Virus record (IMG/VR): IMGVR_UViG_3300035698_011202
Coordinates: 1-64,000 of that record
Source: a virus
Reading direction: 5' to 3' (one strand)
DNA length: 64,000 nt
Shown one piece after another: positions 43,826 through 48,850 of the stretch. The notes below the pieces were generated by a model. It worked only from the letters and a program-made list of their open reading frames with translations. It made no database searches and was not told the origin of the DNA. How positions within the stretch are numbered: the stretch's first letter is position 1; the number at the start of each line of letters is the position of its first letter. The translations under genes and the position numbers were made by a program.

Positions 43826-43920
43826 GGTGTGACACCTGTAAAATTGATGACCAATAAAACGGTGTGACACCTGTAAAATTGACGATGAGAAAACAGTGTG
43901 ACACCTAATAGTGTGACACC
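43826..43920 (+). repeat. Array of four GTGTGACACC palindromes
   Basis: GGTGTGACACC (5+1+5 palindrome) at 43826-43836 and 43861-43871, then GTGTGACACC at 43896-43905 and 43911-43920. The first two lie in a 35-bp direct repeat (CCAATAAAACGGTGTGACAC and on). ATTGATGA/ATTGACGATG leader copies alternate with them and open only micro-ORFs. Spacings of 35, 34 and 15 bp suggest a regulated operator array before the large operon at 43994. Confidence 0.75.
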
Positions 43921-43993
43921 TATCAAATTGACGATGTGAACAAACAGCAAGGTTTTTGCCTTGCACTCCAATTAAATTGACGAAGAGATAATT

Positions 43994-45697
43994 ATGACTG
44001 TTATTGCTATGAGTAAAATCGAAGTACAAGCCCACTTTGCAGATAAAATGGACAATTGCCATCCTTTGGTTGCCGATGCGATTAACAATTGCGTTGGCGG
44101 GTTGCAAATCCGATCCGTGTTCAAGCCTGAATTAAACAGAGAGGCGTTACAATCCAAAGTACAGGTAGCTTTGAGAAAGTTGGCTGCCCACCCTATAGGT
44201 GAGCGTAAAAAGGGTCGTATCTTGGGTGAGGGCAGCAGCATGGATTTTAGATTACACCTAAGTATTCATCAAGATACCCCTTATATGGTGAGTAATATCA
44301 ACGAGATTTGGGTCAACTATATGGTCACGGGTGACATGCCTGCTGAGCGGTCTGTGGGCAGTAAGTTAATGCACAAGGGTCGTGTGCCCATTTCTAAAGT
44401 AGTGTCTGATTTCAGTGATGGCTTGTGCGGTATATTTCGCAACCAAGACCAAACGGTCAAGGACTTTATTGCTGAGATTAACCAGTTGGTAAGTTCCAAT
44501 ATATTTGTGATGACTAAAAGTAAGCTCAAGCATCACTATCAAACGTTTGCAAAAACTAAAAATACGACCTCTTGCATGTCAAAGCCTGACGAACAATATG
44601 AGATGGGTGGTGGTCACCCTATCGATTGTTATGAACAAAGCCCAAATATGGCATTAGGTCTAATGATTAGGCCCGATGCGACTTTTTCTGAGGACCATTA
44701 TAGTTTTGCGGGTCGCATGTTTTTCTTGCATAACCTTGAGGGCAAGTTTGTCGGACGTTCCTCGTTTTACGGCAACGAATCTCAAAAAAGGTTCATCATT
44801 GACCAACTCAATGACAGTGGTATCGACAACACGCTTTACGGCGGTTTGCTGAACGTTATCACTAACCACGATAACGAGTTGATGGTGCCATATATCGATG
44901 TATGCCATCAGCCCCATCGTGACCCTCAATCAAATAGATTGCATTGGCTAGCTGACTTGACTGAATTGCAGGACAATAATTGTATGCACTTAATCGACCA
45001 GCAAATGTGGTTGGAAAAAGGTAAAAAGTACCTTTTTATTGGTGAGCCTGAGTATTGTGGTAATGAGCAGTATTTTCATGGAGAGGCCAGTGACCAAGGC
45101 CGCAAAGTATGCCGTTTAGTGGACGTAGACGACGCGCAGCGGTCATGGACTGATTTATCAAAGGGTGTGGTCCTGATATATGTACCAAGCCGTGACGAGT
45201 CGTATCCAGAGGACGAAGTGGTTTATTCCGACTATTCAGACAGCTATATACACGAGGACGATGTAGTTCACTTAGTAACAGGCGAGATAATGCACGAAGA
45301 TGACGAAGGTAACGAGTATGTCCAATGCGATGACAGCGGCGATAACATTCGCATAGATAGGGCAATTCGCTCTGATTACCACGACCGGTGGTATCGAAAG
45401 GATTTGCATGGCGATATTCTTAGTTATTGCTCAGAAGAAGATGACTATTACTTAGACCACGAAGAAGATAACTTTATGGAGTATCACGGCTACGTTCAGG
45501 TTGTTGATATTTACGGTGATAAGGAATGGTCTAAAAACGCGGTGTTTTCTGAGTTTAGAGGTGCCCATCTTGACGGCGATAGCGCCATTTCCACACCCAC
45601 CAATGATTATATCTATTCAGAAGATGTAATCGAGTGGTTAGAGGCCAATGATTCGTACGAGTACGAGTTTGGTGAATTTACAGAAAAAGCAGCATAG
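43994..45697 (+). CDS. Large unknown protein A of the paralogous pair
   Basis: A 567-residue protein. Residues about 110-310 share a pattern with the next gene: DFSDGLCGIF, Cys in TTSCMSK, an HP...SPN-MALGL segment, YSFAGRMFFL, RSSFYG and NHDNELMVPY. The C-terminal 190 residues are very acidic and built of Tyr/Asp/Glu-rich units (SDSYIHEDDVVHLVTGEIMH; DYYLDHEEDNF). No enzyme family is recognised. It starts an operon with its paralogue and a zinc peptidase, five-base gaps between genes, controlled by the repeat array upstream. Confidence 0.7.
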   Translation: MTVIAMSKIEVQAHFADKMDNCHPLVADAINNCVGGLQIRSVFKPELNREALQSKVQVALRKLAAHPIGERKKGRILGEGSSMDFRLHLSIHQDTPYMVSNINEIWVNYMVTGDMPAERSVGSKLMHKGRVPISKVVSDFSDGLCGIFRNQDQTVKDFIAEINQLVSSNIFVMTKSKLKHHYQTFAKTKNTTSCMSKPDEQYEMGGGHPIDCYEQSPNMALGLMIRPDATFSEDHYSFAGRMFFLHNLEGKFVGRSSFYGNESQKRFIIDQLNDSGIDNTLYGGLLNVITNHDNELMVPYIDVCHQPHRDPQSNRLHWLADLTELQDNNCMHLIDQQMWLEKGKKYLFIGEPEYCGNEQYFHGEASDQGRKVCRLVDVDDAQRSWTDLSKGVVLIYVPSRDESYPEDEVVYSDYSDSYIHEDDVVHLVTGEIMHEDDEGNEYVQCDDSGDNIRIDRAIRSDYHDRWYRKDLHGDILSYCSEEDDYYLDHEEDNFMEYHGYVQVVDIYGDKEWSKNAVFSEFRGAHLDGDSAISTPTNDYIYSEDVIEWLEANDSYEYEFGEFTEKAA

Positions 45698-45708
45698 GAA
45701 AATTGACG

Positions 45709-47211
45709 ATGAGTTATACAAGTAAGACCTTTAACCAATTACAGGCTTCAGTTTTGAAGTCTATGGATGATTTAAATCTAGCACCTATAGAAATACTTTC
45801 GTTGACGAAGAACGCAGCTATGAATGCTGCCCAGCGTTACGCAGAAAAGTATTTGGAGGTATCGCTACGTCAAGGCGATCCTTCTCAGATGAAGCGGCTC
45901 CGAGCGTTTATGGATTCAGCTGGAAACTGTTGTTATGACTTCAATATAGTGGGGAGTCCCCACTCAGAAGAGGATGGTGAGTATCGGTTCACTTATAGCG
46001 TTGATTTTGACCGTCAGGACGGCCTGTACCTGCAAAAACGCTCAAAGCGAGGTGTCAGCCTTGGTCGAGTACTTGGTGACTTTGACGACGGCCTGATGCT
46101 CAATCTTCAATTCGATGGCGATACGTATATTCGCAGCTATCACGAGGTAGAAGCATTAAAAACTGAGGGTATGCCCCAAAGCGAGTTGATCAAGTACTTT
46201 GTCAACAAATTCAAAGCACAATCAAAAAATGCTTTTGTGTATTTCACAGACGTTAACATCGACCAACATTACAAATCTTTGTCTCAAGTGCGTGACTTAG
46301 ATACCTGTTTGAGTCGTAAAAACTCACACTACCATCGCAAGGTCAATGGCACCTATTACCACCCATTGCGAACATTAAACAAGTCGCCAAATGTCCGATT
46401 GGCTTTACTATCCAACACTCATCACAGCGAGTGGGAGGACGGCCAGTACCCCTTTGTGGGTCGTTGTTTAGTCAAGATGGACGAGCTAGGTAAGGTCACG
46501 GGTCTATCTCGTTACTATGGTCACGAAAAGTTCAGTCGTGATTCGCTAAGTCAAGCGTTTAACACTAGAGAAGGAGTGCAAGGCGGGGTATTTAAGGCGG
46601 TATATGATGACGAAAACGAATTGATTTTGTTTTTTGCTGACCAACTAACCTCAGATTCTGAAGAGAAAAATGCGGTTTCGTGGATAGATAATCCTAGTCC
46701 TAGATGGTTCGATATTCATGTAGGCCGCGAGTTTTCGTCCCTCAAGAATCGCAAAGATTTACTGGTAATGGGTAATACCAATCGCAGTTTTGGGGTCACG
46801 CCCAGCTTCGATGGCAGGGAAGTGACTACTTGTAGCAATGCTAAGTATGTGCGTAACGACAGACCTAAGCCCGATAAGTATAGCGACTACGTTTATAGCC
46901 TTGAGTATGGCGTAATCAGGGCCAGTAACTACGATTTGACGTTCAATATTGCGCTAAACGACTTTGTAGTAGACGGCGACATACTACACCGCTCAAATAC
47001 GGGGGATGGCATTACGCATTATCACGTAGAGAAAAACTTGTACGTACAAACTATCTTTCACGATTGGGTGTTACGTGACGAAGTGATACTTTTCTTTGTC
47101 GCATATAGCAGTTGCTATGTCCCGATAGATAATGACCTTGGCATCATATACGGTCAAGAAATGGGCACACGAGAACTTGAAGAATTAATAGCTGACACGA
47201 TTGCAGCATAG
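45709..47211 (+). CDS. Large unknown protein B of the paralogous pair
   Basis: A 500-residue protein, starting at ATG of GGAAAATTGACGATG. It matches protein A in the central region: GDFDDGLMLNLQF, Cys in DTCLSRKN, YHPLRTLNKSPNVRLALL, YPFVGRCLV, SRYYGHEKF and DDENELILFF. Its N-terminus (residues 1-75) is helical; the end is a shorter beta-rich part. A palindrome inside the gene encodes VGSPH. Function unknown; conservation of Cys, His-Pro, Arg and Tyr-Gly in both paralogues hints at an active or binding site. Confidence 0.7.
   Translation: MSYTSKTFNQLQASVLKSMDDLNLAPIEILSLTKNAAMNAAQRYAEKYLEVSLRQGDPSQMKRLRAFMDSAGNCCYDFNIVGSPHSEEDGEYRFTYSVDFDRQDGLYLQKRSKRGVSLGRVLGDFDDGLMLNLQFDGDTYIRSYHEVEALKTEGMPQSELIKYFVNKFKAQSKNAFVYFTDVNIDQHYKSLSQVRDLDTCLSRKNSHYHRKVNGTYYHPLRTLNKSPNVRLALLSNTHHSEWEDGQYPFVGRCLVKMDELGKVTGLSRYYGHEKFSRDSLSQAFNTREGVQGGVFKAVYDDENELILFFADQLTSDSEEKNAVSWIDNPSPRWFDIHVGREFSSLKNRKDLLVMGNTNRSFGVTPSFDGREVTTCSNAKYVRNDRPKPDKYSDYVYSLEYGVIRASNYDLTFNIALNDFVVDGDILHRSNTGDGITHYHVEKNLYVQTIFHDWVLRDEVILFFVAYSSCYVPIDNDLGIIYGQEMGTRELEELIADTIAA
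45948..45964 (+). repeat. Dispersed palindrome, copy 8, inside a gene
   Basis: AGTGGGGAGTCCCCACT in the coding region of protein B, read in frame as VGSPH near residue 82. It is in reverse orientation. Confidence 0.9.
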
Positions 47212-47222
47212 GAAAATTGACG

Positions 47223-48602
47223 ATGACATTTAAAACAGAATTAAAATTGATTGCTAACGAATCCAAGGTATTTCACAACACGGACGCTTTTTTACCCAGT
47301 GTGATATTGCCACAGATATGCCGCCATATCCGAGGCCATAACAGTGTTGGCGAAAAGAATTTCCTTAAAAACTGGCTTGAGCCAGCGTTCAAGAAGCTTG
47401 GCCTTGAGTTCACCAACGATGCCTTTGGTAACTATTACGTGCAAATAAAAGGCCCGCAAATGGAGCGAGTGCTGCACGTAGGCCACTTAGATACGGTCAG
47501 TAGTGCCAGTAATCTCAAGAAATACCAGAAAGTAATTATCGACAAAGATAACTTTATGACGCTAGACCATGCTCACTATGCAAGTCTCAAAGGGGCTGAT
47601 GCTTCTATGGGTGTGCTTGGCGCTGATGACGGCTCGGCTATCGCTGTAATGTTGTATTTGATGGCTAACGGAGTATCGGGCTGTTTTTTACTAACCAAAG
47701 CAGAAGAAATTGGATGCCTTGGTGCAAACTACATCGTAAAAAATCACCCTGAGTTCTTAGAAAAGTTCGATATTGCGCTAGAAGTTGACCGAGCAGACAC
47801 CTTCGAGCTTATCGCTGAGCAAAGTACAGGTAAGTGCGCCAGCCGTGGATTTACAAAAACACTAGCGGATGCAATCGGCATGAAGCACGAGCATTCGGAT
47901 GGAGGAATTATTACTGACCTTGGGAATTTTAATAACCTAATCAAAGAGGGAATTAACATAGCCGCTGGCTATTTATTTCAGCATTCCAGTGATGAGATTC
48001 AAGACATGCTTTACATTGAGATATTAGCTAAGCAGATGGCTAAGCTAGATTATGGCTCGTTGGTTGTATCCCGAAAAGTCACTGATTTAGGTGACACAGG
48101 TTGGGGTAACTATGGGGGTTATGGTGGTGGTTACAGTCGCTCCAAAAGCAGCTCAGGATTACACAAAAACTCTGGGTACAGGTACGACGATTATGAAGAT
48201 TACGATTACGATGGTTTTTTCTCTTCTAAACAGAAAAGCAAGACTGAGGATGTTAAAGGTATTTGCCCTGCGTTGCTGCAAAAAGACCCTGCGTTAGAAA
48301 CAGGGTTGAGCATAGATGACTTGACTTATGACGAGAAAACCGACCTGTACCAGAACCTTTCAGATTCTGATTGGTATTTTATGCTCAACGCTGATGCGAG
48401 GCGCGAGCTGATGCGTTTCGAATATCCAATTATAACGGGTGTTACGTGTGACAAATTACCCTATGCCGAACTCGTTGACTTTATTGCGTCAGACCCAGAG
48501 GCATTTGCTAACTATTTCATAGACCAAAAGCTCGACCTAGCGGTAGTTGGCGCGGATGATTATTTGCAAGATATTAACGATATATACGAAGGAAAATTAT
48601 AA
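47223..48602 (+). CDS. Zinc aminopeptidase/carboxypeptidase-like protein (M20/M28/M42 type)
   Basis: A 459-residue protein. Metal ligands appear in the expected order: VGHLDTV (about residue 86), GADDGSA (133), AEEIGCLGA (160), EVDRAD (186) and FQHSSDE (252). This is the two-zinc exopeptidase or deacylase core. After it comes a Gly/Tyr/Asp-rich linker (GNYGGYGGGYSRSKSSSG) and a separate C-terminal domain (residues about 340-459). The substrate is unknown; it shares an operon with paralogues A and B. Confidence 0.8.
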   Translation: MTFKTELKLIANESKVFHNTDAFLPSVILPQICRHIRGHNSVGEKNFLKNWLEPAFKKLGLEFTNDAFGNYYVQIKGPQMERVLHVGHLDTVSSASNLKKYQKVIIDKDNFMTLDHAHYASLKGADASMGVLGADDGSAIAVMLYLMANGVSGCFLLTKAEEIGCLGANYIVKNHPEFLEKFDIALEVDRADTFELIAEQSTGKCASRGFTKTLADAIGMKHEHSDGGIITDLGNFNNLIKEGINIAAGYLFQHSSDEIQDMLYIEILAKQMAKLDYGSLVVSRKVTDLGDTGWGNYGGYGGGYSRSKSSSGLHKNSGYRYDDYEDYDYDGFFSSKQKSKTEDVKGICPALLQKDPALETGLSIDDLTYDEKTDLYQNLSDSDWYFMLNADARRELMRFEYPIITGVTCDKLPYAELVDFIASDPEAFANYFIDQKLDLAVVGADDYLQDINDIYEGKL

Positions 48603-48850
48603 TGAGTAAATGTTCTAAGAAAGAAGGATGTAATTTGTTTTTCAACGGCGTGTGTCAGGCGCTTTGTGGTCAGCCACAAGACATTTTTGTGGCTGAGTTT
48701 AATAGAGCCAAAAAAACGGTGGCAGCGCCAGTGACGGGTGCTGGATTGTCAAGTACCGCGAACTGGTACAAGCCCAAGCCAGCCGTGGTCTATAAGCCGC
48801 GCCATGTCACTGCCAGTATCCGTACAAGACGCGACTATTTACCTGTATAA
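48602..48850 (+). CDS. Small protein with Cys cluster
   Basis: An 82-residue protein coupled to the peptidase gene (TAATG). Four Cys near the N-terminus (SKCSKKEGCNLFFNGVCQAL, then C) could bind zinc. The C-terminus is basic and extended (YKPKPAVVYKPRHVTASIRT). It may act with the peptidase. No family recognised. Confidence 0.55.
   Translation: MSKCSKKEGCNLFFNGVCQALCGQPQDIFVAEFNRAKKTVAAPVTGAGLSSTANWYKPKPAVVYKPRHVTASIRTRRDYLPV

Follow-up and report, generated by a model that had tools for sequence, protein, structure and literature searches.

The pieces of the system described here are already present in databases, as proteins of unknown function. The nearest to its large proteins are those of phrog_6980 and phrog_13313—Drulisvirus gp11/gp12, Kantovirus gp19 and a Maculvirus “putative structural protein”—whose function is annotated as unknown: they lie directly upstream of a peptidase gene, carry a C-terminal zinc-ribbon-like region and contain the core SCM...HP..Y...GR...K.Y.R.YG...PYxD, and both this core and this position recur in the proteins A and B analysed here. 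A and B nevertheless depart from them, being less than 25% identical, giving no direct match and forming a tandem pair; besides, the repeats of A are devoid of their CxxC cysteines. The peptidase that follows A and B resembles the phage M28-type peptidases (phrog_4191 / PF04389), matching both and sharing their metal and catalytic residues. It is 26-28% identical to the aligned phage relatives, and its own C-terminal part is longer, with a Gly/Ser/Tyr-rich linker.

The GNAT fold is one of those known for the non-ribosomal transfer of aminoacyl or acyl groups. The GNAT-fold non-ribosomal aminoacyl transferases FemX, MprF/A-PGS and Sbb17 are linked to the phage core by fold matches that are weak but agree between two models; on the other hand no sequence homology with them is detectable, and the second half of the fold is apparently missing from the phage core. 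Rac of phiKMV/LUZ19, a phage GNAT linked to the cleavage of the host RNA polymerase alpha, offers another likeness, that of an (apparent) GNAT-type phage protein connected in effect with proteolysis in host takeover (PMC7552054). Rac however keeps its acetyl-CoA pocket, its gene adjoins late genes and it relies on host proteases (PMC7552054); no homology was shown between Rac and the proteins described here. In the literature searched we found no functional study of the large protein and peptidase pair, nor any description of these large proteins as a single family or of their near-obligate pairing with the peptidase. To this set our DNA adds a diverged and duplicated member.

The stretch analysed, hereafter the window, comprises 64,000 nucleotides of a 72,231-base virus record (IMGVR_UViG_3300035698_011202), with replication genes on the plus strand and structural genes on the minus strand. 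An operon of four genes preceded by an operator-like array had been proposed there from the letters alone, and A, B, the peptidase and the Cys protein are all found where they had been placed:

43826-43921, no strand assigned: operator-like array, four copies of GTGTGACACCT, upstream of A
43994-45697, plus strand: protein A, 567 aa, made of an N-terminal region, a core and C-terminal repeats
Protein A, residues about 180-305: core domain, with invariant C194, R241 and D302
Protein A, residues about 405-465: degenerate zinc-ribbon-like C-terminal repeats
45709-47211, plus strand: protein B, 500 aa, ATG start, diverged paralogue of A
47223-48602, plus strand: predicted M28-type dinuclear zinc exopeptidase, 459 aa, matching PF04389 and phrog_4191
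48602-48850, plus strand: Cys protein, 82 aa, with the N-terminal Cys cluster C-x5-C-x7-C-x3-C

The start of the Cys protein does overlap the peptidase stop, by 1 nt (TAATG), and the two genes are translationally coupled. For this protein no relatives were detected, no Pfam match and no PHROG match above chance, and it was not seen beside the relatives that we inspected, so it is doubtful that it belongs to the module. In the window, neither Rfam nor tRNA scans gave a match, and PADLOC, which covers known components of anti-phage defence, gave no match.

That A and B are paralogues is borne out by BLASTP (24% identity over 223 residues, E=1e-13), and the motifs first noticed as shared are found in both. 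Neither protein has a Pfam or NCBIfam match, nor a PHROG match above chance; a resemblance to PcfJ was considered, but no Pfam match supports it. Against a profile of relatives from which the window sequences were excluded, A matches at E=8e-11, with 0/1000 shuffles matching; B is too diverged to match this profile, and matches its relative L012 at 3e-21. When the core is aligned across A, B and six phage proteins, Cys and Arg are invariant and PYxD nearly so; in the family core C, R and D are invariant, S, M, Y and PY near-invariant. B retains C, R and D, but S, M, Y and the PY of PYxD are replaced in it (TCL for SCM, HPLRTL for HPxxxY, FFAD for PYxD), and zinc-ribbon repeats are not recognisable in it. 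On this sequence evidence A and B belong to one family, called here the A-family, with an invariant Cys, Arg, Asp core, B being attached to it via A and L012.

The window peptidase matches phrog_4191 at 4e-51 and Pfam M28 (PF04389) with 30.2 bits, for a cut-off of 21.3, and keeps all the metal and catalytic positions, which are invariant (H88, D90, D135, E161, E162, D189 and H254). We thus predict an M28-type zinc exopeptidase with an intact active site. This protein also gave access to the family: single-protein scans of viral contigs with A, B or the peptidase returned nothing, as did a tblastn search of 50,697 phage records with A and B, whereas the peptidase search matched 375 phage records. 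The family of A and B thus came to light only through the neighbours of the peptidase. In the phage records inspected—Rhizobium phage Pasto, Vibrio phage DE10, Klebsiella phage SU503, Bradyrhizobium phage BDU-MI-1, Pseudomonas phage C171 and Thermus phage TSP4—a large “hypothetical” ORF stands just upstream of the peptidase. In Autographiviridae (Drulisvirus, Maculvirus, Kantovirus and Pasto) an A-family gene lies directly upstream of it, and the same order is found in BDU-MI-1 and a Thermus phage, in prophages of Pasteurellaceae and in many uncultured phages. A scan of 398 Pseudomonadota genomes gave only the known prophage, and so supplied no cellular relative from which a function could be borrowed; when PDB sequences were searched with the family profile, only chance matches came up.

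The strength of this association was measured in both directions. In the forward direction an iterated core profile was run over the ORFs of 86 loci, i.e. 80 IMG/VR loci gathered by the peptidase alone and 6 phages. The core protein is directly upstream of the peptidase (≤150 nt) in 65 of them and nearby in 13 more; seven of the remaining eight have less than 0.7 kb of DNA ahead of the peptidase, and in one locus (L044) no copy was detected despite the presence of upstream DNA. The core protein is thus carried by 78 of the 79 loci with sufficient upstream DNA. Against circularity, 80 loci were also gathered with the large protein alone: the peptidase is directly downstream in 78, one contig ends too early, and in L154 the peptidase lies in an overlapping frame, which makes 79/79 testable loci, all of one clade and some on contigs common to the forward set. 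Clustering of all neighbours revealed no other gene comparably conserved with the pair. The module is located among early/replication genes; in Pasteurellaceae prophages the pair is within the replication module, since it is flanked by primase/helicase and nuclease genes on one side and an SNF2-type helicase on the other. We regard it as practically certain that a protein of the phage-specific A-family and an M28-type peptidase form a conserved two-gene module.

The pair is present in hundreds of sequenced phages, many of them infecting Klebsiella, in which its members are annotated “hypothetical”, “structural” or “peptidase”. Since very different phages prove to share one module, the two orphan annotations come down to a single testable question, that of the target protein of the pair.

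Fold prediction gives a pointer to the nature of the large protein. The AF2 model of an A-family relative (L027) has a mean pLDDT of 93 and a pTM of 0.58; the model of A is poor overall (mean pLDDT 62), with a core at about 80-92. The order of elements in L027, beta-alpha-alpha-beta-beta-beta-alpha-beta, is that of the first part of the GNAT fold, the second half of which is not evident in the model. Compared with the PDB, the great majority of the top 50 matches of L027 are GNAT-fold proteins (FemX, MprF, A-PGS and acetyltransferases), the best being FemX with a probability of 0.94, and the top 12 of A, from an independent model, are SSAT and other GNATs. Individually these matches are weak: their E values are 0.04 or worse, none passing 0.001, and their TM is 0.18 or less by the length of the query, whose model is multi-domain. 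Inspection of the beta4-alpha3 region of A and its relatives showed that the acyl-CoA motif R/Q-x-x-G-x-G/A is absent; profile-profile comparison showed no similarity to Acetyltransf_1 or Acetyltransf_6 (shallow alignments, 30 rows each), and no A-family member matched the GNAT models. Because of this missing motif and negative comparison we call the core GNAT-like, not GNAT. Judging from the models, the A-family core probably has such a GNAT-like fold. A fold search against viral models recovered the whole family, from Drulisvirus, Maculvirus and Pectobacterium phages as well as from uncultured ones, and gave weaker matches to a LIM-domain protein and to a phage protein annotated as amidoligase (rank 31, E 0.0055). 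The C-terminal repeats of the family look zinc-ribbon-like.

The best overall explanation, which we put forward tentatively, is that the large protein is a GNAT-like transferase, with an invariant Cys, whose protein or peptide substrate is trimmed by the peptidase. The A-family core would be a transferase domain of divergent GNAT-like type, devoid of the usual CoA loop; it would attach an acyl or aminoacyl group to the protein or peptide, perhaps via the invariant Cys; the zinc-ribbon-like repeats would recognise the target, and the exopeptidase would trim or remove residues of the same target. That the A-family is a transferase and shares its target with the peptidase is a possibility to be held with slightly more reserve. 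A more precise version, which we consider unlikely, is that a phage-restricted, Cys-dependent and CoA-motif-free GNAT-like transferase tags proteins, possibly with an amino acid, the tag being edited or removed by the dedicated exopeptidase. Were it true, it would amount to a hitherto undescribed system for modifying and editing protein termini, shared by several tailed-phage lineages, and protein tagging with trimming would be a new phage route to host rework. The sequence-only reading had proposed a peptide or protein modification or anti-host system: the link to the peptidase stands by its conservation and the GNAT-like fold is a weak pointer in this direction, while the modification or anti-host role itself we still infer.

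The main rival, which we think somewhat unlikely, makes the A-family a non-enzymatic targeting or regulatory subunit, capturing a host or phage protein via its zinc-ribbon-like repeats and delivering it to the exopeptidase. The obligate pairing and the gene order would suit such an adaptor, as would the LIM-like repeats, with LIM proteins among the fold matches, the divergence of the sequence, too great for any enzyme family, and the persistence of B despite its lost conserved residues. However, the invariant C, R and D, together with the near-invariant S, M, Y and PY, resemble an active site more than a binding surface.

Both products could otherwise be virion or ejection proteins, packaged and injected to act early on the host, or have a role in particle maturation. 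In the Drulisvirus fHe-Kpn01, the annotations of gp12 (A-family), gp13 (peptidase) and gp14 record their detection in purified particles by LC-MS/MS, and the authors considered 29 proteins as “phage particle associated”, some of them merely carried over (PMC7291057). The same preparation also held RNA polymerase, 5'-3' exonuclease, endonuclease VII, maturases and endolysin, so that carry-over is likely; moreover the genes lie among early/replication genes and, in the window, do not share a strand with the structural genes. We therefore hold a virion role to be improbable. The sequence-only reading had envisaged, against itself, that proteomics might place the large proteins in particles with no link to the peptidase; in fHe-Kpn01 the A-family protein and the peptidase were detected together, amid non-structural proteins. 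The toxicity screen made on this phage was restricted to unknown proteins absent from particles (PMC7291057), so gp12 and gp13 should be outside it. The gp14 ORF directly follows the peptidase (L092, 7031-7498), and an ORF of similar size is found there in two other Drulisviruses (L005 and L091); gp14 may be a third partner of the module in these phages.

M28 enzymes are commonly aminopeptidases, and the peptidase might then act on free peptides, for amino-acid supply or similar, the large protein being a separate takeover factor and the two merely co-inherited in the early region. That each gene so closely accompanies the other in very diverged phages, where the remaining neighbours change, is hard to conceive without a functional linkage, and this makes the supply scheme distinctly improbable. 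As to a peptide ligase of the ATP-grasp, glutamine-synthetase-like or nucleotidyltransferase type working with the peptidase, phage operons of this kind were reportedly described (Iyer et al. 2009, known to us via citation) and an amidoligase-annotated protein is among the weaker viral fold matches, but these folds, proposed at first for checking, appear nowhere among the listed PDB matches of L027 or A and no Pfam match supports them, so that we reject such an identity and consider the scheme barely credible.

A, B and the peptidase had also been noted as joined by the same junction. GCAGCATAGGAAAATTGACG is indeed present at both the A/B and the B/peptidase junctions. However, ATTGACGATG occurs in 23 copies in the window, for 0.1 expected, at start codons on both strands (e.g. 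45702, 47216 and 48891 on plus, 15926 on minus) and ahead of many unrelated genes, including minus-strand structural ones; the junction, being a start-codon context used throughout the genome, therefore does not tie A, B and the peptidase together, and its value as evidence of linkage was discarded. What makes the link of A and B with the peptidase strong is its conservation across many phages. As ATTGACGATG is rare in the DNA of the relatives, it is a feature of the window phage and not of the module. Cluster K mycobacteriophages carry start-associated sequences, of which ATTGACGATG is reminiscent. By contrast, the operator-like array holds: GTGTGACACCT, a near-palindrome GTGT-N-ACAC, has exact copies at 43827, 43862, 43896 and 43911, upstream of A, and none elsewhere in the window, 0.9 copies being expected even with one mismatch allowed. 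These copies would act as operators.

Another palindrome, TGGGGA(C/G)TCCCCA, is found ten times in the window for 0 expected (39925, 40643, 41058, 42697, 43271, 43803, 45950, 48864, 52855 and 59237), always in the plus-strand early region and mostly between genes, one copy being within B. These are possibly dispersed operator or stoperator-like sites.

In the core tree A and B group with Pasteurellaceae prophage proteins (support 99/95), their sister relation being weakly supported (92/32). Locus L068 has an independent tandem pair (97/84), L086 two copies, and Thermus phage TSP4 one copy on each side of the peptidase. B would be a lineage-specific duplicate with several conserved residues lost, and may be a partner or a regulator of A. 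The two TSP4 proteins (L007, 4041-4922 and 6173-7174) are short, have the core domain but no zinc-ribbon repeats, and so represent a minimal form of the A-family. In Pseudomonas phage C171 (L008, 5178-5980) the annotation divides the peptidase between two adjacent ORFs, gp21 and gp22, which may reflect a frameshift, an error of sequencing or a genuine split. Finally, genes for a MoxR-type ATPase or Lon-like protein and for vWA/metallopeptidase-like proteins stand downstream of the pair in some phages (L070, 7204-9729; L007, 8903-10636).
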